Assembly: GCA_030156395.1 (NCBI GenBank)
Contig: JASGMP010000004.1
Span: forward strand, 1-64,000
Length of the DNA: 64,000 nt
Direction of reading: 5' to 3'
From: Fidelibacterota bacterium
GTDB lineage: Bacteria > Fidelibacterota > Fidelibacteria > Fidelibacterales > Fidelibacteraceae
The notes under the pieces were generated by a model that ran no database searches, was not told the origin of the DNA, and was given only the letters and a program-made list of their open reading frames with translations. Numbering within the stretch: the stretch's first letter is position 1; the number at the start of each line of letters is the position of its first letter. This document shows, in pieces, positions 46,920-61,294 of this stretch. The position numbers were made by a program, and so were the translations under genes.

Positions 46920-47609
46920 ATGATAAAACGATTTTTTCTGATAACCGCCCTTTTCCTGCTTTGCATGTCCATAACCCTGAGGGGTCAGGACTATGAGGTA
47001 ACTTTTCTCGGAATTCCTGTTGTGCGCGTTCACATTCAACAAATTCCTGGCGATGATCCGAGACTTGTTACCTATGAATATACCGCCCGCACCAAACCTT
47101 TTTTCTCTGCCATATATAAGGTGAATAACCGCTATCGCGTCACCATGGACACGTCTATGAGCCGGATTGTTTCCTATGAAAAAGAAATTTCCCAGAAAAA
47201 CCTTCAACAATCCTTCCACACCCTTTACAAGCCCGGGAAAACAATCTATTCCACGGGTGAGGAAAGAAGCACAGAAACAGACCGGCATACGATGTTATCT
47301 TTGCTTTTGGCGATGACGCGAGAAAGTACCCCCCGGGAATTTAGCACACCCGTTGAGATGGAAGGGGTTTATTATTCAGCCCGGATGATTCCACGGGAGA
47401 AAAGTTCAAATATCCTTGAGTGGAAAATTCTATTATTGCCAGATGGAGGATTCCCCGTTTTGGCTTCGACAGACCTTTTTACCTCACACCTGGCGGATCC
47501 GGAATCCCAACGATCTATCCGTGTGGATATATCTGCCGGTCGTATCGTTTCGGCTAGTTTCACACTTTCGCCCTATACACTCACCGCGCGTATCCTGGGA
47601 GATTCATGA
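46920..47609 (+). CDS. Exported DUF3108-like protein
   Basis: The ATG beginning MIKRFFLITALFLLCMS gives 229 residues with a signal peptide (cleavage near LRGQDYE). The body is beta-rich, with YEVTFLGIPVVRVHIQ, EYTARTKPFFSAIYKVNNRY and VRVDISAGRIVSASF, resembling DUF3108 periplasmic proteins whose role is unknown. There is no ribosome binding site; the alternative ATG six codons upstream also lacks one. It overlaps the next gene (ATGA). Confidence 0.6.
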   Translation: MIKRFFLITALFLLCMSITLRGQDYEVTFLGIPVVRVHIQQIPGDDPRLVTYEYTARTKPFFSAIYKVNNRYRVTMDTSMSRIVSYEKEISQKNLQQSFHTLYKPGKTIYSTGEERSTETDRHTMLSLLLAMTRESTPREFSTPVEMEGVYYSARMIPREKSSNILEWKILLLPDGGFPVLASTDLFTSHLADPESQRSIRVDISAGRIVSASFTLSPYTLTARILGDS

Positions 47610-49279
47610 TGCGCAAGGCCGTGTATCTGACCGCTCTTATCCTGTTTTTGGCGGGGACGGTTTTTTTTGTATTCCGTTCTTGGTTGCGTCAGGGGGAATT
47701 GGTAGCCTTTCCTGAAATCCAAAGCGAAGGCAAGCAGGTCTTTATTGTACGCCCTGAGGAAGAAGGGAAAAGAATCCATATTTACCTTTCGGAAGAGGAG
47801 GATTTTTACAGGGCCCTTGGGTTTTCCCAGGCCTGGGCCGTGGGAGACCGGTTAATGTATTTGCGGTTAAGTGCCAGGGGTAAACTTTCACGGTATTTTG
47901 GAGAAGAATACATATCTGCAGACACCTATCTGAAGGCATGGCCCTTTGAAACCCTTGCCACGAAAACCCTGTCAAACCTTCCGGATGAAACACGGGATAA
48001 CCTTGAACGTTTCGTCAGGGGAATTAATCAACGGTTTTCTTCTTTTCCTCCACCATCGGGATGCCGTTGGTATCATGTGGATACAACTCCCTGGATCGCC
48101 GAAGATGTCCTGGCTATCTGGCACCTTCTGCGTTGGGCACAATGTGAAAATTGGTCATTACCGTTTTTCATCCGTTATGCTGAAATTTACTACGGCCCAC
48201 AGGTTAAAAAGCAATTTGAAACGATTTTAAATGTATCCCTGCCTGGGTTTGAACCCGGGCACATCCGTGATTTCATGGCCTTCTATGAGCTGGATCGGAA
48301 TGTTCGTGAAAAAGTTGGACTGATGCCGGTATTTCTGGAGCAAAGTACGGAGGGATTTCCCCTTTTTGGGTATTCCGGTGGAGAAAATGAGGACTGGATC
48401 GATTTTGTGATACACCAGGATTCTTCCACGACCCGGATTCTTCAGCACACGGGCCTGCCGCTTATTTTCTATGGAGATAAAGGATACGCCAGTCCGGCAA
48501 GTTGTCATGTTGTTCCTGCCGGTCCGGTTTTACCTGCGGGCGCAAGAACTGAAACGGATACAAGCATTCACATCGAATTGCCAAACTTCACCCTGCAGGT
48601 TCCCCTCCGACTTTTTGATATCAACGGAGATGTGTTCGCACACCTGATGAATCAAGACAGTCTGGATATCCGTTTTTTAAAGGATTTTTCTTATGCCGTA
48701 TCTGCCGAAGTTATCGGATATGATACGGTGCCATCCATGATCCGGGGTGTTTCAGAAAAAGAGCTAGCCGTGGAGATTGGCCGGAAATATCCGGAGCATG
48801 AAGCTCTAAACCGTTTGTGCCGAACACAAGATCCCGCCTTGTGGGGGGCTTTTGTCGCGACCCTGCTTGAACGGGTTTACCGGGACGATGTACAGATTAT
48901 CTTTCCAGACTTTGCCTCCTGGCCGGGTGATTCTCCCGGTCTTTTTCTGAAACATCTCCTGATGATAATGAAAAATCCCTACTCGGCATGGTGGGATGAC
49001 AGGCAAACGGCACATATTGTTGAACGAATGGATGATATTTTTACAGATGTCGGGGAAACTGTTTTTTCACAATACAGTCATGGGAAATTATCCGTGCACA
49101 TAGAAGAAGGACAGAGAAATCCTTTGGGTCGTTTTCATATATTGACCGGTGCCTACCGGCACTTTTCCAAAGATATTAAAATCCCCCTTGCCATTGTCCG
49201 CAAGGATGATAGTACCTTTCTTTATAATCGTTTTGTCTGGATTCCAAATTACAAATCTTCAGAAAATTCGCTGAGATAA
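47606..49279 (+). CDS. Degenerate penicillin acylase-like (S45) membrane-anchored protein
   Basis: The protein has 557 residues with a single N-terminal membrane helix (about 5-25). The region EEDFYRALGFSQAWAVGDRLMYLRLSARGKLSRYFG (about residues 60-95) matches the opening domain of penicillin acylase-type N-terminal nucleophile hydrolases, and LPDETRDNLERFVRGIN also fits. The autocatalytic cleavage site, normally G-S-N-x-W at the start of the beta chain, appears as YSGGENEDWI, so the nucleophile Ser may not be correctly placed, and the protein is 150-250 residues short for the family. It is probably an inactive or altered homologue. It converges with the peroxiredoxin gene, overlapping by 31 bases. 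Confidence 0.5.
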   Translation: MMRKAVYLTALILFLAGTVFFVFRSWLRQGELVAFPEIQSEGKQVFIVRPEEEGKRIHIYLSEEEDFYRALGFSQAWAVGDRLMYLRLSARGKLSRYFGEEYISADTYLKAWPFETLATKTLSNLPDETRDNLERFVRGINQRFSSFPPPSGCRWYHVDTTPWIAEDVLAIWHLLRWAQCENWSLPFFIRYAEIYYGPQVKKQFETILNVSLPGFEPGHIRDFMAFYELDRNVREKVGLMPVFLEQSTEGFPLFGYSGGENEDWIDFVIHQDSSTTRILQHTGLPLIFYGDKGYASPASCHVVPAGPVLPAGARTETDTSIHIELPNFTLQVPLRLFDINGDVFAHLMNQDSLDIRFLKDFSYAVSAEVIGYDTVPSMIRGVSEKELAVEIGRKYPEHEALNRLCRTQDPALWGAFVATLLERVYRDDVQIIFPDFASWPGDSPGLFLKHLLMIMKNPYSAWWDDRQTAHIVERMDDIFTDVGETVFSQYSHGKLSVHIEEGQRNPLGRFHILTGAYRHFSKDIKIPLAIVRKDDSTFLYNRFVWIPNYKSSENSLR

Positions 49280-49848
49280 CTTTCAAGGCCTTCGGCACTG
49301 GCCTCCAGGGCAGATTTTCCCGATTCCCAGCCGGCAGGACACATCTTGCCCGTTTCCCGGGTATAGGCCTGGGCGTCGGCCATGCGCAAGATTTCATCAA
49401 CATTTCGACCAAGATTCAGGTTATTGATGATTTGTGATTGCACAATCCCGTCCGGGTCGATGAGAAAAGTGGCCCTGAGTGCCACACCGTCCGGATGTTC
49501 AATGCCGTATTTTTGGGTAATTTCATGATTGACATCTGCGACGAGGGGAAAACGTACCGGCCCAATTCCTCCTTTTGTCCGAGGGGTTTTCTTCCAGGCC
49601 AGATGGGTATATTGTGAGTCTACAGATACGCCAATCACCCGGATACCCCGTTTGTCGAAAGCATCCAGACGCCGGTCATGGGCAATGATTTCCGTTGGAC
49701 ACACAAAGCTGAAATCCAAGGGCCAGAAAAACAGAACGATCGGTTTTCCTTTATAATCGGATAAACGAAATGACGAATTGATCGTATTGTCCGGCATGAC
49801 AGCCGGTGCCGTGAAATCAGGAGCTTCACGGGATACAAGGACAGTCAT
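49249..49848 (-). CDS. 2-Cys peroxiredoxin (AhpC/TSA family)
   Basis: The protein has 199 residues. The peroxidatic Cys is in PLDFSFVCPTEI (about residue 51), and the resolving Cys is in GKMCPAGWESGK (about residue 169), so it is a typical 2-Cys peroxiredoxin that reduces hydrogen peroxide and alkyl peroxides. It is the last gene of the leftward Mbx-like operon, translationally coupled by ATGA to the ferritin-like gene. Its presence suggests protection of the low-potential complex against oxidants. Confidence 0.93.
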   Translation of the reverse strand: MTVLVSREAPDFTAPAVMPDNTINSSFRLSDYKGKPIVLFFWPLDFSFVCPTEIIAHDRRLDAFDKRGIRVIGVSVDSQYTHLAWKKTPRTKGGIGPVRFPLVADVNHEITQKYGIEHPDGVALRATFLIDPDGIVQSQIINNLNLGRNVDEILRMADAQAYTRETGKMCPAGWESGKSALEASAEGLESYLSEFSEDL

Positions 49849-50327
49849 TGTGATTTCTTTCTATCTGGGTTTCTTTTTCGTTTTTCGATCATTTTCAGTA
49901 TACGCTTTTGATGTCCGACCTCCTGTTGACGTAGGTCTTCAAAAACCTGGACAAGGTGTTCGGGGATATCGGTTAAAGTAAGATATAAGCGATAGAGGGC
50001 TTCGGTTTGTTTTTCCCGCTCCAGAGCAACGTTTAAAATTGTATCTGCATCCGATTCTTCGCTGATATCCTCTGTTTTAACAACCCGGTCCGAAAGGTTA
50101 ACCTCGGTTCCCAGTGTTATATCCAGTTCCGGAGAGGTCAAAGGGCTCTGTTTTAATAAATCCCGCAGATGATTGAAGTGTTTGGTTTCCTCTTCCGAAA
50201 GCTCGATGGCTAATTGGCGGGCATCCGGATCACTGAGAAAACCGGCTGCCCGGACATAAAACACATGACTTTCTGTTTCAATCCGTTCCGCATGCTCAAG
50301 GATATTCCGTACGGTTAAATGTGTCAT
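49845..50327 (-). CDS. Ferritin-like diiron protein
   Basis: The protein has 160 residues with the ferritin/rubrerythrin-type four-helix pattern. Likely metal ligands are Glu in RIETESHVFY, the E-E-x-x-H motif in EEETKHFNHL, Glu in NVALEREKQTEALYRLY, and E-x-x-H in QQEVGHQKRI. It lacks the rubredoxin Cys domain, so it is a stand-alone diiron protein, possibly peroxide-consuming. It overlaps both the redox fusion gene upstream and the peroxiredoxin gene downstream by ATGA. Confidence 0.8.
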   Translation of the reverse strand: MTHLTVRNILEHAERIETESHVFYVRAAGFLSDPDARQLAIELSEEETKHFNHLRDLLKQSPLTSPELDITLGTEVNLSDRVVKTEDISEESDADTILNVALEREKQTEALYRLYLTLTDIPEHLVQVFEDLRQQEVGHQKRILKMIEKRKRNPDRKKSQ

Positions 50328-52114
50328 TGTTCACCTCGCAAAATATGGTCTATACGTTTTGCCGCCGTGTGACCGTTGGCAATCGCGTGTATCACATCCG
50401 GCCCTTCTATGATATCACCACCTGCAAAAAACCAAGGCAGGGATGTTTGATAATAAGCATCTACCTGAATCCGCCCCCGAGCATCGGTCTTCATTTCCTT
50501 TTTGATTGATTCAGGAATATAGGAGAGATCCATACCCTGTCCGATGGCTTCAACGATAATGGATGCGGGTAGAAATTGGGTATCTGAATGGTCAAACTTA
50601 GGATTGAAGCGGCCGTTTTCGTCAAAAACCGAAACACACCGGACGGTTTTCAGGCCCTTCAGGGTGTCACCGTTGCTAACAACTTCCAGCGGTCCATAAC
50701 CTGGAATGATTTGAATCCCTTCTTCCCGGGCTTCCACAATTTCCTCCCGATCTGCCGGCATAATATCCTCTGTTTCCAGGCAGGTGAGGGTGATATCCAC
50801 GCGGCCCATCTTTTGCATGTGCAGGCGTGCAAGGGTCCGGGCGATATCCATGGCGACATTTCCGCCTCCGATGACGATCACCGGCGCTTCATAAGGGATT
50901 TCCAGTCCTTTGGTAAAATCACGGAGCAGATTCACCGCCTGATATACTTTGGGATGATCAGATCCCTTAGCCCGCGTACTCCGGCCTTCATGAAGCCCTG
51001 TTGCCGCATAGATAATGTCAAAGTCCTTGTGGAGGGATTCCAGAGAAATATCCCGCCCAACACGTGTTTCAGTGCGAATTTTTACTCCAATGTGTTTTAT
51101 ATATTTAATGTCTTTATCCAGCTGGTCATAGGGAAGTCGATATTCGGGAATTCCATATCTCATCATGCCCCCGGCCTCGGGCTGAGCTTCAAAAATCACA
51201 ACGGTATGTCCCTGAAGTCGGAGATAGTAAGCGGCGGAAAGACCGGCCGGGCCGGCACCGATAATCGCGACCTTTTTCCCCGTTTCTTCCTGGGGAGAAT
51301 CCAGAATCGCAGCATATTCGTGTTCCGGAATCTGATCTGCAATATATCGTTTCAACCACCGGATAGATACGGGATCTCCCCGATGGAAAATGGAACACAC
51401 GGTTTCGCATTTATGGGTACACACCCGGCCACAGACTTCCGGAAATGGATTGGTCTCATAGAGAATACGCATGCCCTGGTTCAAATCATCGTTTCGAATC
51501 GCCTCAATATAGGCGGGAATACCCATGTGTGCCGGGCAGGTGGCAACGCAAATCCCGCAGGAAACACATCGGTCAGCTTCCTGTAGCGCTTGATCGCGGC
51601 TGAATCCTTTTACAATTTCCATAAATCCCTGGATTCGGTCCGCCGGATTGAGCTCTTCCATGGAGACCCGCTTCAACGGGTTCAGGGTGTAGTTTTCCGG
51701 CCGTTTGTATCCCTTGTCGGCCGTGTCCCAGGGTTTTTCCTCCGCACCGGGAATAAACCGGAAAACTTCCGGATCATTGTCAATCCATTGATAGGCATTG
51801 GACATAGTCAAGGATCCCGTGGTACAAATATCGACACAGAGGCCACACCAGCAGCAACGTCCGTAATCAATCCGGGGGCGCAGGCCGCTGTCACCGTCCT
51901 TTGTTTCAATACCCTCCACTGGGACCATATCAATAGCGGCATTCTGACAAATGGCTTCACAGGTGCCGCATCCAATACAGGTTTCCAGATCATTTTTGTG
52001 AAAACCCCGGTAGCGCGGGGCTGCAACCCGATTCAGGGGATCTTTAATTGTGATGGGGTCTTTTACCAGATTTTTCCAGGCCGTCAATGGCTGAAGGATA
52101 TCGCTGATTTTCAT
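50324..52114 (-). CDS. NuoI-like ferredoxin fused to GltD-like FAD oxidoreductase (Mbx N-type subunit)
   Basis: The protein has 596 residues. The N-terminal part has the two 4Fe-4S motifs of NuoI/MbhN: Cys46-x2-Cys49-x2-Cys52-x3-Cys56 and Cys87-x2-Cys90-x2-Cys93-x3-Cys97. The second part is GltD-like: a further Cys183-x2-Cys186-x2-Cys189-x3-Cys193, the C-G-R-V-C-T-H-K-C-E motif, the FAD motif AIIGAGPAGLSAAYY and the NAD(P)-type IVIGGGNVAMDIAR. It would pass electrons between ferredoxin, NAD(P)H and the membrane arm. It starts two bases after the NuoD-like gene. Whether it works as NADPH or ferredoxin oxidase is not decided by sequence. Confidence 0.8.
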   Translation of the reverse strand: MKISDILQPLTAWKNLVKDPITIKDPLNRVAAPRYRGFHKNDLETCIGCGTCEAICQNAAIDMVPVEGIETKDGDSGLRPRIDYGRCCWCGLCVDICTTGSLTMSNAYQWIDNDPEVFRFIPGAEEKPWDTADKGYKRPENYTLNPLKRVSMEELNPADRIQGFMEIVKGFSRDQALQEADRCVSCGICVATCPAHMGIPAYIEAIRNDDLNQGMRILYETNPFPEVCGRVCTHKCETVCSIFHRGDPVSIRWLKRYIADQIPEHEYAAILDSPQEETGKKVAIIGAGPAGLSAAYYLRLQGHTVVIFEAQPEAGGMMRYGIPEYRLPYDQLDKDIKYIKHIGVKIRTETRVGRDISLESLHKDFDIIYAATGLHEGRSTRAKGSDHPKVYQAVNLLRDFTKGLEIPYEAPVIVIGGGNVAMDIARTLARLHMQKMGRVDITLTCLETEDIMPADREEIVEAREEGIQIIPGYGPLEVVSNGDTLKGLKTVRCVSVFDENGRFNPKFDHSDTQFLPASIIVEAIGQGMDLSYIPESIKKEMKTDARGRIQVDAYYQTSLPWFFAGGDIIEGPDVIHAIANGHTAAKRIDHILRGEQ

Positions 52115-52116
52115 GG

Positions 52117-53295
52117 TTATCGCTCTATTTCAGGTGGATAGGTATGCAGAGAGGTCATCAGGGCCGCCACATCGGCAATATTCACTCCGACGACCAGTTT
52201 TTCCATGAGGGCCACAGCATGGGTGTACGAGGGGCCCCGCACATTGACCCGCCGGGGGTACATGGAACCGTCAGAGACCATATAATATCCGTATTCACCC
52301 CGGGTACATTCTGCCCGGACATAGGTTTCTCCCCGGGGAATTTCCCAGTTCAGCACATTAGGCAAAGGCGCCATATATTCTCCGTTTTCCGGCATTTTAT
52401 TCAGAATCTGCCGGATCAGATCCACGGTAATAAGCAAATCCCGCCGCCGGACATCCAGACGAGTATAGGCATCGGATTCTTGGCCGGTGACCGGTTCAAA
52501 ATCCAGCTCCGGATATTTAAGGTATGGGGAATCTTTCCGGACATCCAGAGGGATTCCCGCTGCCCGCGCATTGGGGCCGGTAATGCCGTAAGGTTCTACC
52601 CATGAGGGATCTATAATGCCGAGGCCCTGGGTTCGCTTTTTAAAAACGGTATTGTTGAACATGACGGTTTTAACATCTTTCATAATCTGCTCAATGTCAT
52701 CCAACACCTCCAGGAGCCGTTGCTTAAATCCTTCTGGCAGGTCATTCCGAACCCCGCCCGGCAAAATATACATGTGATAGATTCGGCCGCCGGTGAGTTC
52801 TTCAAACCGGTCCAGAATATAATCCCGCAGGTAATTGGTCCACTGCCCCGGCAATCCGTGCCCAAGACTACCGGCCGCACCGCCCATCCACATAAGATAG
52901 CTGGCCAGCCGCGCCATTTCCAGTACCAGGGTACGAATCCATAGGGCTTTTTCCGGGACCTCAATACCGGCCAACTCTTCGACACCTGCTGCAAAACAGT
53001 ATTCGTTAAAATCAGGTTCGGGAACACAGATGCGGCACACCAGCGGAAAACACTGGATGTATTTCCGCCGCTCCATCAACTTTTCAAATCCCCTGTGCAG
53101 GTAGCCCACGTGTGTTTCACACTGCATCACCTCATCACCCTGGATGATGAGTTCAAGAGACATATTCCCTGTAACGCCGGGGTGTTGGGGGCCCTGCCAG
53201 ATATGGGTGAATTTGTGACTTTCCAGGTCTATCTGAAAAGAGCCGTCTGCATTTTTCGGGGGAAATTTGCTCCTGTCTTCTTCAAAATATTTCAT
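52117..53295 (-). CDS. nuoD: NuoD/MbhL-type 49-kDa subunit of Mbx-like complex
   Basis: The protein has 392 residues of the hydrogenase large-subunit/complex I 49 kDa family (HVGYLHRGFEKLMERR). It opens with GPQHPGVTGN; the quinone-site His of complex I's HPxxHG is missing (Thr42 in its place). The [NiFe] motif R-I-C-G-I-C is reduced to C-R-I-C-V-P-E (87-93), and there is no C-terminal D-P-C-x-x-C. So it should bind neither NiFe nor quinone in the normal way, as in Mbx/Mbs complexes. ATGA overlap with the NuoC-like gene. Confidence 0.85.
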   Translation of the reverse strand: MKYFEEDRSKFPPKNADGSFQIDLESHKFTHIWQGPQHPGVTGNMSLELIIQGDEVMQCETHVGYLHRGFEKLMERRKYIQCFPLVCRICVPEPDFNEYCFAAGVEELAGIEVPEKALWIRTLVLEMARLASYLMWMGGAAGSLGHGLPGQWTNYLRDYILDRFEELTGGRIYHMYILPGGVRNDLPEGFKQRLLEVLDDIEQIMKDVKTVMFNNTVFKKRTQGLGIIDPSWVEPYGITGPNARAAGIPLDVRKDSPYLKYPELDFEPVTGQESDAYTRLDVRRRDLLITVDLIRQILNKMPENGEYMAPLPNVLNWEIPRGETYVRAECTRGEYGYYMVSDGSMYPRRVNVRGPSYTHAVALMEKLVVGVNIADVAALMTSLHTYPPEIER

Positions 53296-53828
53296 GATTC
53301 TGTTCCATCGGGATAGAGTTTCTGTTTCATATATGTCTCAGGATCGTGAGTTTTCCGTCCCGGCCTGGGGAAATAAGTCTCTTCCGCATATTTTTTTGTG
53401 TCAAAATCTCTCCGGTAGGGAGGAATCTCCTGCCAGCCTTCCAGGATAAAGGGTTTGTTTACCCGAGGGCTTCCGGGAAAATCGATTCCAAACATTTCAT
53501 GCAATTCCCGCTGATAGGTGGCCGCCGTTTCCCATAAGGTGTGAATGGATTCCATTATAGGATTTGATCGTGGGACAAATACCCGGATACCCACATCTGT
53601 CTTTTGGGTATAATTCCTCAGGAGATAGGTAATCTGAAACAGATCCTCTTCAATCCAGTCCACAGCCGTGATCAGCACAAGGTGGCGAAAACCCAGCATA
53701 TCCCGCAGGTGTTTCAACGCTTGAACCAGTACCCCAGTATCCAGGGTGGCGAACAGGAGATCTCCCCGCTTCTTTTCAAAATTTTGTCCTGAAAAGAGTG
53801 TTTTCAGCTCTTGAATGACATAATCCAT
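53292..53828 (-). CDS. nuoC: NuoC/MbhK-type 30-kDa subunit
   Basis: The start is the ATG six bases after TAGGA, giving 178 residues (MDYVIQELKT); an earlier in-frame TTG overlaps the NuoB-like gene and has no ribosome binding site. The conserved 30 kDa signature is RELHEMFGIDFPGSPR (about residues 114-129) followed by PPYRRDFD. This subunit docks the NuoD-like protein to the NuoB-like Fe-S subunit. The stop overlaps the NuoD-like start as ATGA. Confidence 0.88.
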   Translation of the reverse strand: MDYVIQELKTLFSGQNFEKKRGDLLFATLDTGVLVQALKHLRDMLGFRHLVLITAVDWIEEDLFQITYLLRNYTQKTDVGIRVFVPRSNPIMESIHTLWETAATYQRELHEMFGIDFPGSPRVNKPFILEGWQEIPPYRRDFDTKKYAEETYFPRPGRKTHDPETYMKQKLYPDGTES

Positions 53829-53836
53829 AAATGTTC

Positions 53837-54478
53837 CTACCAATTATAGTCCGGCATATCCCAGTCTTTGATAATTTTTTTCTGATTGGCTTTATACCAA
53901 TCCAAATTTTCGATATAGGCGTTGGCGCCCTCACCTTTTCCGGCACGGATCCGTTTTTTTAGTTCCTCGAGACCCGCCAGAATGGATTCGGGACGGGGCA
54001 TACAACCGGCGACGTATACATCTACCGGTAGATAATGATCCAGACGGTTAATGGTATTGTAGCTATCCCAATACATGCCGCCATTGATCGTACAGCTGCC
54101 CAGTGCCATCACGAATTTCGGGTTTTGCATTTGCTCATAACTTCGAATCACCCGTTTGAGGGTTTTGACGGAGAGATAGCCGGAGACCATAAGCAGGTTG
54201 GCTTGACGGGGTGTGGGTCTCCATTGAATGCCAAAGCGGTATGCGTCAAAGCGGGGTGTCATGAGGGGACGCATTTCAATAGCGCCACAGCCGGTTCCAT
54301 ATCCCAGGATCCACACGGATTCAGACCGGGCCCAGTTGAAAAATTTTTCCAGGATACGGTTTGCCGGAGATTCGGGATGGGGACGTTCCGTGCAGAAGTA
54401 ATCCTCCATGGGATTCACTTCAAATTCAATTCCGTCAGGGCCTATTACACGGCGTTTTTTCAAGTCATCATTGGACAT
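53837..54478 (-). CDS. nuoB: NuoB/MbhJ-type Fe-S subunit with altered N2 cluster motif
   Basis: The ATG at 54478 has GAGG five bases upstream and gives 213 residues. It belongs to the family carrying the terminal 4Fe-4S cluster (N2). Two ligands are Cys129 in GSCTINGGMY and Cys159 in AGCMPRPE. The tandem Cys-Cys of complex I (C-C-A-I-E-M) reads Cys64-Gly65-A-I-E-M here. The hydrogenase type C-x-x-C is not present either. So the site has one fewer visible Cys than both known forms. It is followed nine bases later by the NuoC-like start. Confidence 0.87.
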   Translation of the reverse strand: MSNDDLKKRRVIGPDGIEFEVNPMEDYFCTERPHPESPANRILEKFFNWARSESVWILGYGTGCGAIEMRPLMTPRFDAYRFGIQWRPTPRQANLLMVSGYLSVKTLKRVIRSYEQMQNPKFVMALGSCTINGGMYWDSYNTINRLDHYLPVDVYVAGCMPRPESILAGLEELKKRIRAGKGEGANAYIENLDWYKANQKKIIKDWDMPDYNW

Positions 54479-54485
54479 AATCGCC

Positions 54486-55391
54486 TCATATAAAAAGGAT
54501 TGCAAGAATTCCAATCAGTGTGGGAATCCGAAGAAACCAACGTATGGACTGATCCACACGAAAGCGGGGGAAAGCCACACCGATAAAGACAGGCCACATA
54601 TAAAGCAGGAAAACCTTTATAATTAGCACTGGCCAGTTTGTGGCACCGCCAAAAAACAGATTCACATAAAGAATGGTTTTAGCCATGGGAAAAATGGCCC
54701 GGTTTGTTTGGAGGACAGCCAGGAAATTGGAATGAAATTCTGTAGGGGGCCCAACGGGGATTTCCTGAGGGGCCATAACCACATCAAAGGGAGATCGCAT
54801 CATGGATCCCAGAAACCCCAGCAAAGCGGCAATTGTTGCGAGGGGATTGGTAAACAGTGTCCAATTCAGAATGCCCCCCTGCTGTGCCGCCACAATATCT
54901 GTCACAGACAGTGTCTGGTACTGAACGGCGATGGCAATGATAGCCAGGATAAGAGGGATTTCAGCAGCCGTCGTTTGGGACAGTCCACGGGTGATTCCTA
55001 TGGCAGAATAGGGATGACCACTTTCTCCGGCACCAAGGGCCATTCCCAGAGTGCCAAAGAAAATAAAATAAGTCAGGAGAATGAGGTCACCGGATCCGGA
55101 AAAATTCTGAAACCATACAGAACCGTAAATCACGGGCATAAAAAGAAAGAGTCCGATGCCCCCCGAAAGCCTGAAAACAGGACCCAGATAGAACATAATG
55201 CCGTGGGACACGGCTGACCGCATCGCATAATTCTTGAAAAGATCCAGATAGAGCTGATACCATCGGATCCCATGGCGACGCCCGAGACGGGCACCGATTT
55301 TGCGGACGATACCCTGAATGATTAATCCCACATTCAACACGATGAAAAGGGAAACCAGGGCATAAACAAGCTGCATCCAGTGAAATGTCAT
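54486..55391 (-). CDS. nuoH: NuoH/MbhM-type membrane subunit
   Basis: The protein has 301 residues with about 8 membrane helices. Family motifs are VRKIGARLGRRHG, RSAVSHGIMFYLGPVF, GESGHPYSAIGITRG and SPFDVVMAPQEIPVGPPTEFHS, where the E-rich loop corresponds to the Glu-rich funnel of complex I. The subunit links the redox arm to the antiporter arm. It starts in a TAATG overlap with the large antiporter gene and ends seven bases before the NuoB-like start. Confidence 0.88.
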   Translation of the reverse strand: MTFHWMQLVYALVSLFIVLNVGLIIQGIVRKIGARLGRRHGIRWYQLYLDLFKNYAMRSAVSHGIMFYLGPVFRLSGGIGLFLFMPVIYGSVWFQNFSGSGDLILLTYFIFFGTLGMALGAGESGHPYSAIGITRGLSQTTAAEIPLILAIIAIAVQYQTLSVTDIVAAQQGGILNWTLFTNPLATIAALLGFLGSMMRSPFDVVMAPQEIPVGPPTEFHSNFLAVLQTNRAIFPMAKTILYVNLFFGGATNWPVLIIKVFLLYMWPVFIGVAFPRFRVDQSIRWFLRIPTLIGILAILFI

Positions 55392-58300
55392 TATATTCCT
55401 CCCAGGACAAGGAAAAAGACCAGAACAGCAAAGAGGATCTGGTGAATCACATAACTTTGGCCATTCCCGCTGAAAAGTCGGGCGATAAATCCAGCGATGG
55501 CATGCGTACCCTCAGATAAACGGTTCCAAAAATCTGTACTGACAGGAGCCACCAGAAATCCCAGCGCTTTCTGGTAAGGCGCAAAGAAGTTGTAGGCAAA
55601 GTGGGTCAGTTCAGGACGGGATGGCCGTTCGCCGGCAAAGACAATGTTGAACTGCTTTATTTTCACGGCTTTCCGGTTGATGAAGAAAAGCCAGAAAAAA
55701 ACCGCGGCAAAAACGACACCGGTCACCAGCATAATCATATATCCATTCCAGTAGCCATAGAGGCTGCGGGCCATGGGGCCATCCCATACGAGGGCATGTT
55801 CGGGGAAATACCGAGTCAGAAAAGTACCCACGGGTTTCAGGGCGACATTGGGCACCGTGCTTATGAAAAGGATAACACCCATGAGGATAATCTGGGGCAC
55901 CATCATCCAGAAAGGTGCTTCTTTAACCTGGCGGTGTTGATCTTTCAGCTGGCCCAGAAAGATGGTGAAGATTAGTCGAAAACAATAGAGGAAGGTCACC
56001 AGGCCGGCAAAGTTGATGATCACCCCCTGAAAATACCATCCACTGAGGACCGTGGCATTGTAGCTGAGCCATTTTCCGGCAAAACCGGTTAAGGGGGGAA
56101 CACCGGAAAGGGCGATAATTCCGATCATCACCGAGATAAAACTTAAAGGCATTTTTTTTATGAGTCCGCCCATTTCGTACATATTTCGGGTTTTAACCCG
56201 CATCACCACGCCCCCGATGGCCAGAAAAAGTAAGGCCTTGATAAGGAAATGGTTCAGGGCGAAAACCGTAGCCGTTAACCAGCCCAGATGATTCATCATG
56301 GCCAGGGCGAAAAGCACATAGCCCAATTGCCCTATACTGGAATACGCCAAAAGTCGCTTTGCATCCTCTTCAAAAATGGCACTCAGGTTGCCGATCAGCG
56401 CTGTTATGGCACCTAGCCACCCCAAGGCTGTATAGAGGTTTACTCTACCAAGGGACTGAGGTCCCATCCCGGCCATCAGGAGGATTAATCCAAACACGCC
56501 TGCCTTCAGAAGAACAGCAGACACGACAGGGGACACATCACTTTCCGCCTCGCTGTGAGCACCAGGAAGCCAGATATGCAAGGGAACGGTGGCGGTTTTA
56601 GTCAGGAAACCCAAGGCAAGCAGGATAAAGATCACAGCCTGAAATGGACCGCCGGACGAGAGCGTTTCCAGGGCAAGGGAGCCTTGATTTGCTGCAGCCA
56701 GGAGTCCGAAACCCGAAAGCATGGTATAGGCTCCGCCCATGGAAAAAAGGAAGTAAGACAAGGCATGGGGAAGGGATTTTTTGCCTCGCAGAATCAGGAA
56801 ATAGCTTCCCAGGGTCATTAGTTCCCACCAAAAGAAAAATTCCACGGTTGTCCCAGCGGTCAACAGGCCAACAAGACCCGAATACATCAAGGCCGATGAA
56901 GGGTAAAAACCAATACGACGTCCTTTATAATGATAACCTGCCAGAAGAAGAATCATCCCACCAAGCAAAAAGATGATGGCGAAAATCAGGCGAAATTCGG
57001 TTAACGTGGGATACAAAAAGTAAAAATAGAGTCCCAATCCACCAATCATAAATGTGTTTTTTACACGGGCTGGTAGGAAATCCAACAGAAAAAACCCAGT
57101 TATAAAAAGGAGAGGAATCCAAGCGTTGGTTAGGATAAAAGCAAACCGGGACCTATTCAAAAGAAGGATCAAGCCAAGCAAGAGAAGAGCTGGGACGAGG
57201 GTATAAACCGGAGGAGTTTTTTGAATCTCATTAGCGGTTTGTTCATTTCCTTTCACAGCAAAGCCAAACCATCGGATCATCCAAGCGGCTTCCAGAAGAG
57301 AGCCCAGAAGAATTGCAGCCATCATCCACCCGTAGGGCCCTGCAGCCAAGGCCGAGATCAGGGACCATTTTGCGAAGAAAGACGGAAAGGGAGGAAATCC
57401 CAGAAGGGCGAAAATGTAAAATCCCAAAAGAAAAATAAATAACGGTTTGTGTCGAATACCGGCCCATTCATAAACGGATGTATATCCAGTATGGTGGCTC
57501 AGCCAAAAGAGTCCGCCCTTGGCCAGTGCGTGGACAGCCATAAGGGAAGCGGCAATGAAAAACATATCCTCTTTCGATAAAACACCCATTCCGAAAACGG
57601 CTGCAATCAAACCAGCCTGTCCCACGGAAGAATAACCGAGCATACGATTCACAATATGTTGTTTCAGTGCCAGGATATTGGAAAAGAGAAAGGTTACCAG
57701 ACCAATGATTATCAGGGGAAAAAGCCAGCGGTCGCCAACAATAGGGAGAAATTTGTACAGGGCAAACAGTCCGGCGGTTATTCCGGCGCCGGAAAAGACA
57801 GCGGAGACGGCCGGTGAAGCATTTTCATACACATCCAGGGCCCAGCCGTTTGCCGGAAAGGGCTTCAATTCAAAAATCAGGGCCAGAAAGAGAAAAAAAG
57901 CACCGGCACTTCCGGAATATAAAACAAGGGGGTCTGTAAGCAGAATGTTGTCTATATCCAGTGCGCCAGTACGGACATAAATCAGGATTGCTGAAAGAAT
58001 AAGGAAGATAGAAATCACACCGGTAGCCATCATCCAGGAAAAACCCGCCTTCAGACATCGTCCGGATTCCTTAAACAAAACCATGCCGGCCAGGGCAACG
58101 GAGCTGATTTCAATAAACACAAAATAGTTAAACAGATCCCGGGTGAGAACGATCCCGTTGAGAGCCATGAAATAAAGAAGATATGTCACGGCGCTAAGGG
58201 TTCCTTTTTGGCGAAAAGTTGTTTTTAGGGCGGAAAGCCCGAGAAGTCCCAAACCGTTTATCAATAGCAGGGTTAATGCTTCGGGAAGAGCCATTCGGAA

Positions 58301-58519
58301 GGCAATGGAAAAGGGGGGTAAACTTCCAGCTGTTGATGCTGTATAAGGTTGCCGTGTGCCGGACACAAAGGCAGACACATAGTATGCCGAAATCAGGACT
58401 GTTCCGGCAAGAGCAAGGTTCATCACCGCCGATTGAAATTTTCCGTACCGCTTACCGGTTAGACCAGTAAAGAAAGTGGCTAAAAGTGGCAGGGCAATAA
58501 AAAGAATAGGTTGTGTCAT
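55391..58519 (-). CDS. Fused double antiporter-like subunit (MbxH-H' / MrpD-like)
   Basis: The protein has 1042 residues consisting of two consecutive NuoL/M/N-type proton-conducting modules in a single chain. The first has Glu137 in FVFIEISS and Lys219 in FELKPFPANGW. The second (starting near residue 480) has Glu566 in WWELMTLG and Lys641 in LGFLTKTATVPLHIWLPGAHSEA. These are the paired Glu (TM5) and Lys (TM7) residues of complex I and Mrp pump modules. In archaeal Mbx/Mbs these are two separate genes. It overlaps the MnhC and NuoH genes. Confidence 0.87.
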   Translation of the reverse strand: MTQPILFIALPLLATFFTGLTGKRYGKFQSAVMNLALAGTVLISAYYVSAFVSGTRQPYTASTAGSLPPFSIAFRMALPEALTLLLINGLGLLGLSALKTTFRQKGTLSAVTYLLYFMALNGIVLTRDLFNYFVFIEISSVALAGMVLFKESGRCLKAGFSWMMATGVISIFLILSAILIYVRTGALDIDNILLTDPLVLYSGSAGAFFLFLALIFELKPFPANGWALDVYENASPAVSAVFSGAGITAGLFALYKFLPIVGDRWLFPLIIIGLVTFLFSNILALKQHIVNRMLGYSSVGQAGLIAAVFGMGVLSKEDMFFIAASLMAVHALAKGGLFWLSHHTGYTSVYEWAGIRHKPLFIFLLGFYIFALLGFPPFPSFFAKWSLISALAAGPYGWMMAAILLGSLLEAAWMIRWFGFAVKGNEQTANEIQKTPPVYTLVPALLLLGLILLLNRSRFAFILTNAWIPLLFITGFFLLDFLPARVKNTFMIGGLGLYFYFLYPTLTEFRLIFAIIFLLGGMILLLAGYHYKGRRIGFYPSSALMYSGLVGLLTAGTTVEFFFWWELMTLGSYFLILRGKKSLPHALSYFLFSMGGAYTMLSGFGLLAAANQGSLALETLSSGGPFQAVIFILLALGFLTKTATVPLHIWLPGAHSEAESDVSPVVSAVLLKAGVFGLILLMAGMGPQSLGRVNLYTALGWLGAITALIGNLSAIFEEDAKRLLAYSSIGQLGYVLFALAMMNHLGWLTATVFALNHFLIKALLFLAIGGVVMRVKTRNMYEMGGLIKKMPLSFISVMIGIIALSGVPPLTGFAGKWLSYNATVLSGWYFQGVIINFAGLVTFLYCFRLIFTIFLGQLKDQHRQVKEAPFWMMVPQIILMGVILFISTVPNVALKPVGTFLTRYFPEHALVWDGPMARSLYGYWNGYMIMLVTGVVFAAVFFWLFFINRKAVKIKQFNIVFAGERPSRPELTHFAYNFFAPYQKALGFLVAPVSTDFWNRLSEGTHAIAGFIARLFSGNGQSYVIHQILFAVLVFFLVLGGI

Positions 58520-58869
58520 GATTTTTCCACCAGTTTACTGAGTGACAGGGTTCCGTAGGTATGGTAGAGGCGCAAAGCAAACACCAGGAGGAAAGCAGTG
58601 ATGGCAAACCCGATGACAATGGCGGTAAGAACCAGTGCCTGGGGCAGGGGATCCACAATCTGTGTTTCAGGTCCTGCTGCAATCATGGTGTCGTTTAATA
58701 TGGGCGCGGTACGGTTTTTCAGATATCCAAACGAAACGATAATCAGATGAACGCCTGTATTGGCCAGGGAGAATCCGATAATGATGCGTAGCAGATTATC
58801 CCGTGTCAGCAAAGCATACAGTCCTAAAAGGATCAAAAGTGAACCGGTTGTGAGGGTTATCGTTATCAT
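58516..58869 (-). CDS. mnhC: MnhC/MbxG-type (NuoK-like) subunit
   Basis: The protein has 117 residues with three helices. It has the NuoK-like pattern LLILLGLYALLTRDNLLRIIIGFSLANTGVHLIIV and a second block with DPLPQALVLTAIVIGFAITAFLL, where the P-L-P-Q-A-L-V-L-T-A-I-V-I motif is diagnostic of MrpC. It lies directly after the MnhB-like gene and is coupled to the antiporter fusion by ATGA. Confidence 0.92.
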   Translation of the reverse strand: MITITLTTGSLLILLGLYALLTRDNLLRIIIGFSLANTGVHLIIVSFGYLKNRTAPILNDTMIAAGPETQIVDPLPQALVLTAIVIGFAITAFLLVFALRLYHTYGTLSLSKLVEKS

Positions 58870-59556
58870 TTATGACTCTCCATCACTGTGTGTGATTTTA
58901 ATCAGCATGGATGAAAGTTCTGTGCCTACTTTCAGGCCGATCAGGATGGAAACCAGGGGAATAGTTCCGGCGGAGATCATTTTTCCCGGGACACCGCCTG
59001 GCAGGAGGCGGGAATCCAAAAATCCCCCGGCAAAAAAGAGACCGGCAAGTCCCAATAGAACATAGAGAAAACCGGAAGAAGATTCTATGATGGAGAAAAG
59101 CCGGGTGGATAGTTGGCGACCCGTTCCGGCCAAAAGTGCCAGGAGAAAGGCAGATGCCAAAAAGGCCCCGCCCTGGAAACCACCACCGGGAGAAATGTGA
59201 CCGTTGACAATGATATAGATGCCTGTCAGAAGGATAAGGGGAAGAATCATCCCGGAGGCCGTGTTCAGGAGTGGACTAGGAGGCGAAGGACGCCGGGTAT
59301 TTTCCGGTTTGAGATAAAAGCCAAAGATGGATGCCACGAGGAAAAGAACCGTGACTTCACCCAGCGTGTCCAGTCCCCGGTAAGTTACGAGGACCGCAGT
59401 TACCAGATTCAAGGCACCGGTTTCGGAAATTCCTTTTTCACCATAGTGTCTGGCAGTGGGTCCCAAGGCCTCCGGCAAAGTATAATCGCTTACGAGGGTA
59501 AAGAAAACAAACCCCAGGCCAACCAGGAGGAGGAAAATGAGAAACTTTCTAACCAT
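58870..59556 (-). CDS. mnhB: Fused MbhE-like and MnhB-domain subunit
   Basis: The protein has 228 residues with about 6 helices. The first part contains NLVTAVLVTYRGLDTLGEVTVLFLVA (about residues 49-74), the MbhE/MrpA C-terminal signature. The second is the MnhB domain with NGHISPGGGFQGGAFLAS. The two are separate subunits in Pyrococcus but a single chain here. The start overlaps the MbhD-like gene by eight bases. Confidence 0.85.
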   Translation of the reverse strand: MVRKFLIFLLLVGLGFVFFTLVSDYTLPEALGPTARHYGEKGISETGALNLVTAVLVTYRGLDTLGEVTVLFLVASIFGFYLKPENTRRPSPPSPLLNTASGMILPLILLTGIYIIVNGHISPGGGFQGGAFLASAFLLALLAGTGRQLSTRLFSIIESSSGFLYVLLGLAGLFFAGGFLDSRLLPGGVPGKMISAGTIPLVSILIGLKVGTELSSMLIKITHSDGES

Positions 59557-59797
59557 GTTTATCCTCCTTGTGTGTCTTGCCCAGAACCATAAAAAAGAGG
59601 GCTGTCATGAGTCCGCTGCTGATAGCTGCTTCGGTCATGGCCACATCAGGAGCCGCCAGGAGGATATAAAGAACACTTGAAAAAAGGCTGACGGCACCGG
59701 TGGCAATGATAGCTGATGGCAGGGATTCAAAGCGTATGGCAGCCAGGGCGGCCAGGAGAATGATAAAAGAAAGAAAAAGTGTAAAAAATGTAATCAT
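59549..59797 (-). CDS. MbhD-like (DUF4040) subunit
   Basis: The protein has 82 residues and three helices. The motif APDVAMTEAAISSGLMTALF matches the DUF4040/MbhD (MrpA C-terminal) signature A-P-D-V-A-M-T-E-A. It participates in the cation-translocation unit. It starts in an ATGA overlap with mnhG and its end overlaps the following gene. Confidence 0.87.
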   Translation of the reverse strand: MITFFTLFLSFIILLAALAAIRFESLPSAIIATGAVSLFSSVLYILLAAPDVAMTEAAISSGLMTALFFMVLGKTHKEDKHG

Positions 59798-60138
59798 CGG
59801 GATTCCTCCTTTTCTTTTTCAACAGGTGATCCCAGATCATCCCGGAAGAAACGGCCTTTTTCCTGATGGTGATGATAGGCAGCCCGGGCGATGACATGGT
59901 TGGAAACGGGAACTGTGATCAGAATAAAAACGGCAATGATCAGCAAACGGCCCCACCATCCAGGATGAATAAAACCGATTCCCAATAAAATGAGGAGGGT
60001 TCCAAGCGTGGAAGCCTTGGTTCCGGCCTGAATGCGGTTAAAAACATCCGGCATGCGCAAAAGGCCGATGGAAGCTGTCAGAAAGAAAAAAGAACCTATA
60101 AGGACAAAGACGGCTCCGATGATTTCAAGATATTGCAT
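59794..60138 (-). CDS. mnhG: MnhG/MbxC-type subunit
   Basis: The protein has 114 residues and three helices. The MnhG pattern GSFFFLTASIGLLRMPDVFNRIQAGTKASTLG is present, with the R-M-P-D-x-x-x-R-x-x-A-x-T-K-x-x-T-x-G motif. The C-terminal about 30 residues are charged. It overlaps the mnhF stop as TAATG. Confidence 0.92.
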   Translation of the reverse strand: MQYLEIIGAVFVLIGSFFFLTASIGLLRMPDVFNRIQAGTKASTLGTLLILLGIGFIHPGWWGRLLIIAVFILITVPVSNHVIARAAYHHHQEKGRFFRDDLGSPVEKEKEESR

Positions 60139-60398
60139 TACAATCCTTTCTCGATAAATCGGCCGATGACGATAATCCCCAAAAAGGAAAGGAGTCCGTA
60201 AACCAGGGCCACATCCAGATAGAGGGCCCGATCAAAGAGAACAGCTGCCAGGCCGATAAGGGAAATGACGAAAATGCCCAGTACATCAAAAGCCACAGCC
60301 CGGTTCACAAATCCCGGTCCCATGAAAAAGCGATACAGGGCTAAAATCAGCGAGATAAAGATAAGAACGCCGGCGACAAAGAGGATTTTATCGGTCAA
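60138..60398 (-). CDS. mnhF: MnhF/MbxB-type subunit (TTG start)
   Basis: The start is a TTG six bases after GGAGG (60409-60405), giving 86 residues (starting LTDKILFVAGVLIF), the normal MrpF length; a longer frame to 60476 lies inside mnhE and lacks a ribosome binding site. The motif FVNRAVAFDVLGIFVISLIG resembles the MrpF core (D-R-x-x-x-x-D), followed by DVALVYGLLSFLG. Confidence 0.9.
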   Translation of the reverse strand: MTDKILFVAGVLIFISLILALYRFFMGPGFVNRAVAFDVLGIFVISLIGLAAVLFDRALYLDVALVYGLLSFLGIIVIGRFIEKGL

Positions 60399-60879
60399 AG
60401 AGGGCCTCCAAATGTTTTTCAAATTTTTGGACAATCGCATCTGTTTCAAGGTTATCATGCACGTCTCCTGCATCAATCCAATGGATGTACAGGATATCGT
60501 CCCGGATATCCAGGGTAAATGTGCCGGGGGTCAACGTGATAGCATTTGCCAGCATCAACCGGGCCAGCGGGTCTTTAAGGCGGGTTTTTACGGCAACGAT
60601 TCCTGGTTTGATGGGCAGAGAGGGAGAAAGGACCCGCAACGCCACATCCACATTAGCCCGGATAAGTTCAGCCAGAAAAACACCGGTAAAACGAAGAAAA
60701 GCCCACAGGGATTTTGGCGTCAGGGACACGTGTTTAAAAACCGGGAAGAATTTCGAACTCCAAAGAGCGAGGAACAGGGAGAGAATCAATCCGGAAACAA
60801 AAATTTCACCGGACAGGGAATCGTTTAAAAGAAACCAGATTCCCAACATTAGCACTCCGGAAAGTGTACCGTGCTTCAT
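60388..60879 (-). CDS. mnhE: MnhE/MbxA-type subunit
   Basis: The protein has 163 residues. Two helices at the N-terminus are followed by a cytoplasmic domain with the signature LMLANAITLTPGTFTLDI and LYIHWID, typical of MrpE/MnhE. It is the first structural gene of the Mbx-like operon, 12 bases after the ArsR-type regulator, and overlaps mnhF by 11 bases. Confidence 0.92.
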   Translation of the reverse strand: MKHGTLSGVLMLGIWFLLNDSLSGEIFVSGLILSLFLALWSSKFFPVFKHVSLTPKSLWAFLRFTGVFLAELIRANVDVALRVLSPSLPIKPGIVAVKTRLKDPLARLMLANAITLTPGTFTLDIRDDILYIHWIDAGDVHDNLETDAIVQKFEKHLEALFDR

Positions 60880-60891
60880 ACAATCCTCTCG

Positions 60892-61152
60892 TTAACAATT
60901 AACAAGATATTTATCCATTAAATCCAGCAATTCCCGAACACACGCATTATTCAGGGAATAGCGATGATATTTCCCGTCTTTGCGGGAGATCACAATATCA
61001 TGAAATTTTAAAATCTTTAACTGATGACTCAGGGAAGATTGATCTATCTGAAGGATTTGGGCGATGTCGCTTGCACACAATTCGCCGGATCGAAGAAGCC
61101 GGGCAATCTGAAGACGGCCGGGATCACTCAGCGCTTTGAAAATTTCCGCCAT
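60892..61152 (-). CDS. ArsR-type winged-helix regulator of the Mbx-like operon
   Basis: The protein has 86 residues. The ArsR/SmtB fold is clear: FKALSDPGRLQIARLL, then ELCASDIAQIL and the recognition helix QSSLSHQLKILK, followed by the beta wing DGKYHRYSL. Cysteines are at 26 (near the family's metal-site ELCVCD motif, here ELCASD), 71 and 86. An AAGGAG followed six bases later by an in-frame ATC codon lies upstream, while the ATG has no ribosome binding site; an N-terminal extension of 14 residues by a rare ATC start is possible. An operator and promoter precede it, suggesting autoregulation. Confidence 0.88.
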   Translation of the reverse strand: MAEIFKALSDPGRLQIARLLRSGELCASDIAQILQIDQSSLSHQLKILKFHDIVISRKDGKYHRYSLNNACVRELLDLMDKYLVNC

Positions 61153-61242: not shown

Positions 61243-61258
61243 TTGAACATTTGTTCAA
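61243..61258. promoter_or_regulatory. ArsR-type operator palindrome
   Basis: TTGAACA-TT-TGTTCAA is a perfect 7-base inverted repeat with a two-base centre, matching the core of ArsR/SmtB 12-2-12 operators (TGAA...TTCA). It lies just downstream of the predicted -10 box, overlapping the transcript start of the regulator gene, where binding would block transcription. Confidence 0.7.
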
Positions 61259-61264
61259 ATGATA

Positions 61265-61294
61265 ATTTAAGAAAATATCCATCGTGTATGTCAA
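61265..61294 (-). promoter_or_regulatory. Predicted promoter of the arsR-mnh-nuo operon
   Basis: On the minus strand a perfect TTGACA (61294-61289) and TTAAAT (61270-61265) are separated by 18 bases. The predicted start lies in the operator. The -10 box is only a 4-of-6 match. Confidence 0.5.

Follow-up and report, generated by a model that had tools for sequence, protein, structure and literature searches.

The stretch of DNA analysed here (hereafter the window) comprises 64,000 nucleotides from a Fidelibacterota bacterium, positions 1 to 64,000 of contig JASGMP010000004.1 in assembly GCA_030156395.1. It carries an operon in which Mrp-antiporter genes are joined to genes resembling those of complex I, and readings of it as a quinone reductase, a hydrogenase or a member of the MBX/MBS family described from Pyrococcus furiosus were compared. 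The open-frame listing of the window revealed fifteen densely packed genes on the minus strand from 61152 to 49249. Twelve of these (60879-50324) were assigned to the complex by Pfam, in the order MnhE, F, G, MbhD, MbhE+MnhB, MnhC, H+H', NuoH, NuoB, NuoC, NuoD and NuoI+GltD (Table 1). No NuoE, F or G gene was found in the operon, and the NuoF of complex I was not found in the genome of the window. An earlier sequence-only reading had likened the gene order from mnhE to NuoI to that of archaeal Mbx/Mbs operons and had noted that NuoE, F and G are missing from the operon; every subunit that it named was located by Pfam at the place it gave. Its span of 49249-61152 does hold the complex genes, but the ArsR-family, rubrerythrin-like and peroxiredoxin genes inside that span had gone unmentioned. 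As a whole its observation was confirmed, while its interpretation was supported in part.

The best structural matches were analysed for the individual subunits. Among PDB structures NuoD came closest to MbsL of the P. furiosus MBS (E=6e-99; the best true complex I gave 4e-64), NuoB to MbsJ (E=1e-62), and the antiporter halves to MbsH and MbsH' (6u8y_H, 6u8y_X). In the maximum-likelihood tree of NuoD the bacterial family together with MbsL was split from complex I with support of 99/99, the archaeal side being a single row on a long branch for which the tree program warned about exact placement. The NuoD proteins of operons with a fused H-H' formed one clade in the same tree (100/99). Whether NuoD and NuoB fall inside quinone-reducing complex I had been set beforehand as a test, and NuoD branched outside it. 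These matches, the tree, the site residues described below and the gene order indicate that the operon almost certainly belongs to the MBX/MBS family, as the sequence-only reading had held. The family, the domain order, the cluster ligands and the loss of the quinone and NiFe ligands were all read from the sequence.

The residues of the active site were compared across the relatives. Both residues that hold the quinone head group in complex I are replaced throughout, H38 of Nqo4 by threonine in 90/92 (threonine or valine overall) and Y87 of Nqo4 by valine in 92/92, and tandem cysteines like those of the complex I cluster are not present. These losses, with the position beside MBS in the tree, make a quinone reductase of complex I type very unlikely, for which the general homology of NuoB, C, D, H and I would otherwise speak. 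A Mrp-linked group 4 [NiFe]-hydrogenase can be given next to no weight. MbhL is a homologue of NuoD (6cfw_L, E=2e-42), and gene clusters of other candidate phyla, known here by description, appear in the literature as Mrp-linked group 4g hydrogenases (PMC8542988); however, at least two of the four cysteines that bind NiFe are lost, and of the two that MBS retains NuoD of the window has C85 alone, and the position of MbsL C385 is tyrosine in 86/92. The identities as complex I and as hydrogenase were rejected on the site residues and the NuoD tree. In NuoB, C28, C93 and C123 are kept in 80/80, and the fourth candidate, C25, is gone in 78/80. For MBS, three cysteines of this NuoB type leave one iron of the cluster open, and this iron was shown to catalyse S-S cleavage and sulfane reduction (PMC7684303). 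C25, C85 and C385 are dispensable in the P. furiosus enzyme (PMC7684303), and the bacterial loss of MbsJ C25 and MbsL C385 is in accordance with those mutants.

Unlike the site residues, which are of MBS type, two of the chains are joined in a manner that P. furiosus does not have. H-H' and NuoI-GltD were found as single open frames without stops in the window, in contigs of many other assemblies and in G003, a single-contig genome of the same genus (2.79 Mb) in which the two proteins are 90% and 93% identical to those of the window. The claims that each of these is one polypeptide were borne out, and assembly error was ruled out as their origin because the fusions recur in G003 and in dozens of other genomes. 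The joining of E and F in one chain, which had been claimed as well, is present but is not distinctive, as archaeal MbsE is the identical fusion (PMC8415708, PMC7684303); since MBS normally has MbhE and MnhB joined, this fusion was rejected as a special feature.

The fused proteins were found in dozens of genomes of Neomarinimicrobiota (the phylum of the window), Bacteroidota, Spirochaetota, Cloacimonadota and Pseudomonadota. The locus counts refer to the best 80 named loci, with phyla as given in the record titles, and are lower bounds because many contigs are cut. The whole H-H' fusion (at least 1000 aa) is present in at least 55/80 and the whole NuoI-GltD in at least 68/80, and all twelve genes were found in at least 48/80 (Pseudomonadota 34, Spirochaetota 7, Bacteroidota 5, Cloacimonadota 1, unnamed 1). 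The operon is therefore widespread and no local peculiarity: several bacterial phyla have all twelve genes. Within the phylum of the window the distribution is patchy: NuoI-GltD occurs in 15/245 genomes and H-H' in 15/245, and three other genomes of the genus, each more than 90% complete, have neither. Three loci of the phylum (L028, L030 and L031) have NuoI-GltD with H and H' separate, and two of the three branch with P. furiosus MbsL. Since loci with split H carry NuoI-GltD, the GltD fusion is the broader feature, and H-H' marks the large clade. MBX itself is already known, and the fused branch with its NAD(H)-type flavoprotein is a variant of MBX rather than a separate kind. No description of the H-H' fusion clade or of its NAD-type GltD domain was found in the open-access literature, subscription papers not being searchable.

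Further hallmarks of this lineage were observed in the antiporter. In its first half the lysine of transmembrane helix 8 (MbsH K250) is replaced by T, A, S or G in 62/62, and a lysine stands two positions beyond the glutamate of transmembrane helix 7 in 62/62. The remaining key charges of both halves are kept, with aspartate for glutamate in four cases and arginine instead of lysine at K399 in 39. The split-H protein of L028 retains K250.

The NuoI-GltD protein was analysed as the probable port of electrons. Four [4Fe-4S] clusters would call for sixteen cysteines, and all sixteen are conserved without exception in 83/83. Residues 3-595 of the window's protein align to positions 8-609 of the 611-residue NCBIfam model PRK13984 with 887 bits; the equivalog cut-off of 946 bits was reached neither by this protein nor by the split-H variants (654-703), so that NuoI-GltD is a relative and not a strict equivalog. 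The structure prediction for this chain (mean predicted local distance difference test score 66, mostly below 50 in the NuoI part) was not used. Where NADPH-binding relatives have 'YRR' in the GltD domain, 78/83 proteins have 'LE', and the remainder belong mostly to early branches or to forms with split H. Since a terminal glutamate on this strand is usual with NAD(H), the change from the NADPH-type 'YRR' to 'LE' suggests a preference for NAD(H). The link to NAD(P)H that had been proposed earlier is supported by the GltD domain. The same domain is homologous to NfnL/GltD oxidoreductases, which is compatible with an ion-pumping ferredoxin:NAD(P)+ oxidoreductase in which ferredoxin would dock at NuoI, the GltD flavin would make NAD(P)H and sulfur would play no part; Mbx was formerly described as a ferredoxin:NADP+ oxidoreductase (cited in PMC6349859). 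This is held to be improbable. In the superfamily, coupling has its origin in the proximal cluster with its chamber, and this reading would leave them idle although the cluster ligands are invariant; moreover, the genome of the window (G000) and G003 already possess Rnf for the ferredoxin:NAD reaction.

The draft genome G000 (1.99 Mb) carries Rnf and two [FeFe]-hydrogenases, the latter with NuoF-type genes in their vicinity. Of its three NuoF-type proteins, one is encoded on the contig with the Rnf membrane genes and the others on the two [FeFe]-hydrogenase contigs. No second NuoD-type protein and no complex I were found in G000. G003 has the same set and a second Rnf/Nqr locus. By its gene content the host looks like an anaerobic fermenter. 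The K subunit of its V-type ATPase keeps S/T-Q, Q and E at the positions of the Na+-binding residues of Enterococcus NtpK, and these residues would fit Na+ bioenergetics. The mention of a type IX secretion system in the sequence-only reading agrees with 41 matches to its sorting tails in the genome.

Taken as a whole, the complex is proposed to be a near-equilibrium, Na+/H+-coupled oxidoreductase between NAD(H) and sulfane sulfur (or a disulfide) that runs forward, a mechanism to which we give a nearly even chance. Substrate, direction, ion stoichiometry and nucleotide preference are what we infer in it. The Mrp-type membrane arm (MnhE-F-G, MbhD, MbsE, MnhC and the fused H-H') would be coupled to a complex-I-like arm (NuoH, B, C, D and I), on whose NuoI the GltD-type flavoprotein would stand in for NuoEFG as the NAD(P)H port. 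NADH, or less likely NADPH, would reduce the FAD of the GltD domain, from which electrons would pass over the two [4Fe-4S] clusters of that domain and the two of NuoI to the proximal [4Fe-4S] cluster of NuoB. In the chamber between NuoB, NuoD and NuoH the open iron of this three-cysteine cluster would reduce a polysulfide-like sulfane-sulfur or disulfide bond, and this reduction would power the passage of H+ in H and H' and of Na+ in the Mnh module. Sulfane or disulfide is the most likely partner because the acceptor site is of MBS type. Sulfur reduction had been suggested earlier, and the conserved three-cysteine cluster makes it plausible without showing it. The enzyme is probably near equilibrium because NADH and polysulfide are close in potential; it may accept ferredoxin also and may reverse in other hosts.

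Several points weigh against this mechanism. The fused branch is known from sequence, and its preference for NAD(H) rests on a motif. The neighbouring genes were considered as a clue to the substrate; the rubrerythrin-like gene alone recurs broadly, and no direct hint of sulfur was found among them. With polysulfide as acceptor, NADH gives only about 60 mV; since at ordinary gradients this would not suffice to move two or more ions in each reaction, either the ion ratio is low, or ferredoxin also enters at NuoI as in MBS, or the enzyme operates in reverse. Many hosts are sulfur oxidisers or aerobes, where forward sulfur reduction is unexpected.

A mainly reverse operation, in which the ion gradient would push electrons from sulfide, persulfide or thiol, oxidised at the proximal cluster, to the GltD/NuoI end, where NAD(P)+ or ferredoxin would be reduced and the cell thereby supplied with low-potential electrons, bears directly on these last points and is regarded as rather unlikely. 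The named hosts include Thiothrix, Thiohalocapsa, Halochromatium, Lamprobacter, Sedimenticola and Magnetovibrio, which are sulfur-oxidising lineages, and the small gap between NADH and polysulfide would ease reversal. In the Riftia symbiont, co-expression neighbours are common to a putative Mrp-Mbx, whose direction is unknown, and the reverse tricarboxylic acid cycle (PMC11636981); however, that complex was likened by description, MBS operates in the reducing direction, and the fermenter-like genome of the window with its Rnf and [FeFe]-hydrogenases does not suggest such a role. In a wider form, which we consider quite unlikely, the fused NAD(H)-type branch would be a reversible ion-coupled thiol/sulfane:NAD+ oxidoreductase, and many sulfur bacteria would make NADH or reduced ferredoxin by quinone-free, ion-driven reverse electron transfer.

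The control region and the flanking genes were also analysed. The TTGACA-18-TTAAAT site and the palindrome upstream of the first gene are identical in L020, from a second genome of the genus, and because of this identity the operon and its regulator gene are probably transcribed from that site. A general scan for promoters and terminators gave no excess over shuffles and missed the conserved promoter site. The ArsR-family regulator has three cysteines common to both genomes compared and, by analogy with SurR of Pyrococcus, is a possible redox or sulfur sensor. The rubrerythrin-like gene overlaps the 3' end of the NuoI-GltD gene and stands directly next to it in several phyla (13/65 named loci with sufficient sequence, and further loci); its overlap and recurrence imply that its product may serve or protect the complex, and they suggest protection against peroxide or oxygen. 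The peroxiredoxin gene adjoins the operon only in the genus of the window among the loci seen. A penicillin amidase homologue (47606-49279, plus strand), matching the N-terminal part of the profile only, runs towards the operon and shares about 30 bases with the end of the peroxiredoxin gene. For NuoB and NuoC the ATG codons at 54478 and 53828, respectively, are the more likely starts.

Table 1. Features of the operon and its flanks in the window, in the direction of transcription.
Feature	Position	Strand	Evidence and remarks
Putative promoter, TTGACA 61294-61289 and TTAAAT 61270-61265	within 61243..61294	-	conserved in L020
Palindrome TTGAACA-AA-TGTTCAA, probable ArsR-type operator	61258-61243	-	conserved in L020
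ArsR-family regulator, first gene of the unit	60892..61152	-	PF01022 E=1e-13; operon head in G003 too
MnhE / MbsA	60388..60879	-	PF01899 E=7e-40
MnhF / MbsB	60138..60476	-	PF04066 E=1e-13; start uncertain, about 60422 or later by homologue lengths
MnhG / MbsC	59794..60138	-	PF03334 E=8e-27
MbhD / MbsD	59549..59797	-	PF13244 E=2e-18
MbhE+MnhB single chain / MbsE	58870..59556	-	PF20501 + PF04039
MnhC / MbsG, NuoK-like	58516..58869	-	PF00420 E=5e-24
Fused antiporter, 1042 aa	55391..58519	-	PF00361 in two stretches; residues 1 to about 455 = MbsH, remainder = MbsH'
NuoH / MbsM, membrane anchor	54486..55391	-	PF00146 E=1e-41
NuoB / MbsJ, proximal [4Fe-4S] cluster, three cysteines	53837..54478	-	PF01058; open frame extends to 54514
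NuoC / MbsK	53292..53828	-	PF00329 E=2e-27
NuoD / MbsL	52117..53295	-	PF00346; no quinone-binding residues, at most one NiFe cysteine
NuoI (residues about 1-135) + GltD-type FAD/NAD(P) protein (about 150-596), 596 aa	50324..52114	-	PF12838, PF14691, PF07992; NCBIfam PRK13984 full length
Rubrerythrin/ferritin-like protein, recurring last gene	49845..50327	-	PF02915 E=1e-9
AhpC-type peroxiredoxin, neighbour outside the complex	49249..49848	-	PF00578 E=5e-38

Related loci of other forms were observed in the phylum. A fused H-H' membrane module without redox-arm genes is present in other genomes of the phylum, complete at L150:1495-7952, cut at L152:986-5652 and with H-H' alone at L151:3024-7032, and a similar 276-aa protein of unknown nature follows the module in L150 and L151. 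No MBX-type NuoD was found elsewhere in G211 or G209. From their gene content these loci look like an MBX membrane arm that has lost its redox arm and turned into a Mrp-like antiporter. G208 and G201 were found to hold another MBX operon, in which H and H' are separate and NuoI-GltD is present (L030:3315-14166 and L031:630-11466). Its NuoD branches with P. furiosus MbsL, its NuoB retains the C25-type cysteine, and its first antiporter has glutamate at the K250 position. The same two genomes encode a remoter NuoD-like protein (L139, L143) that lies outside complex I and MBX in the tree and may be part of a hydrogenase of group 4 or of some related complex.

MBX/MBS is regarded as the evolutionary link that connects Mrp antiporters with hydrogenases and complex I. 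Its chemistry has so far been worked out in one hyperthermophilic archaeon. The bacterial branch is widespread yet scarcely studied. If the proposed mechanism is true, an NAD(H)-linked form is common in mesophilic, partly cultured bacteria, where sulfane chemistry, ion coupling and direction can be tested at ordinary temperature. Environmental clusters labelled 'Mrp-linked group 4 hydrogenase' or 'second complex I' may be neither.

Compared with known systems, the operon is closest in layout to the MBS of P. furiosus (sulfane sulfur reductase, formerly Mbx, PDB 6U8Y), with which it shares the order A-B-C-D-E-G-H-H'-M-J-K-L-N (PMC7684303, PMC8415708), the fused MbsE, the three-cysteine proximal cluster and the lack of a quinone or NiFe site. 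The archaeal enzyme differs in having H and H' separate, an MbsN of 208 aa without GltD, and ferredoxin as donor, whereas the window has H-H' in one chain, NuoI joined to GltD, MbsJ C25 and MbsL C385 lost, and H without K250. The NCBIfam family PRK13984 ('putative oxidoreductase') has the NuoI-GltD architecture at full length, but most relatives here carry 'LE' and not 'YRR'. Its cut-off was exceeded by one of 14 control genomes, which we expect to be Thermotoga maritima, where the protein would be the one annotated 'glutamate synthase beta subunit'. T. maritima has a bacterial MBX of 13 subunits that is induced by sulfur (PMC9431562) and was earlier described as a transferred operon (PMC2246101). 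The Mrp-Mbx of the Riftia symbiont (Candidatus Endoriftia), compared by description, likewise joins Mrp and Mbx in a gammaproteobacterium, its function and direction being reported as unknown (PMC11636981). In the Nfn large subunit and in GltD, too, a cysteine-rich N-terminal domain precedes the FAD and NAD(P) domains, but in the window GltD is fused to NuoI in a membrane complex and has an altered nucleotide motif. A second complex-I locus without NuoEFG is described in Caldithrix (PMC5317091). Complex I itself shares the peripheral arm B, C, D, H and I and the antiporter-like subunits, while the window differs from it in having neither NuoEFG nor quinone ligands and in carrying a Mrp-type distal Na+ module.

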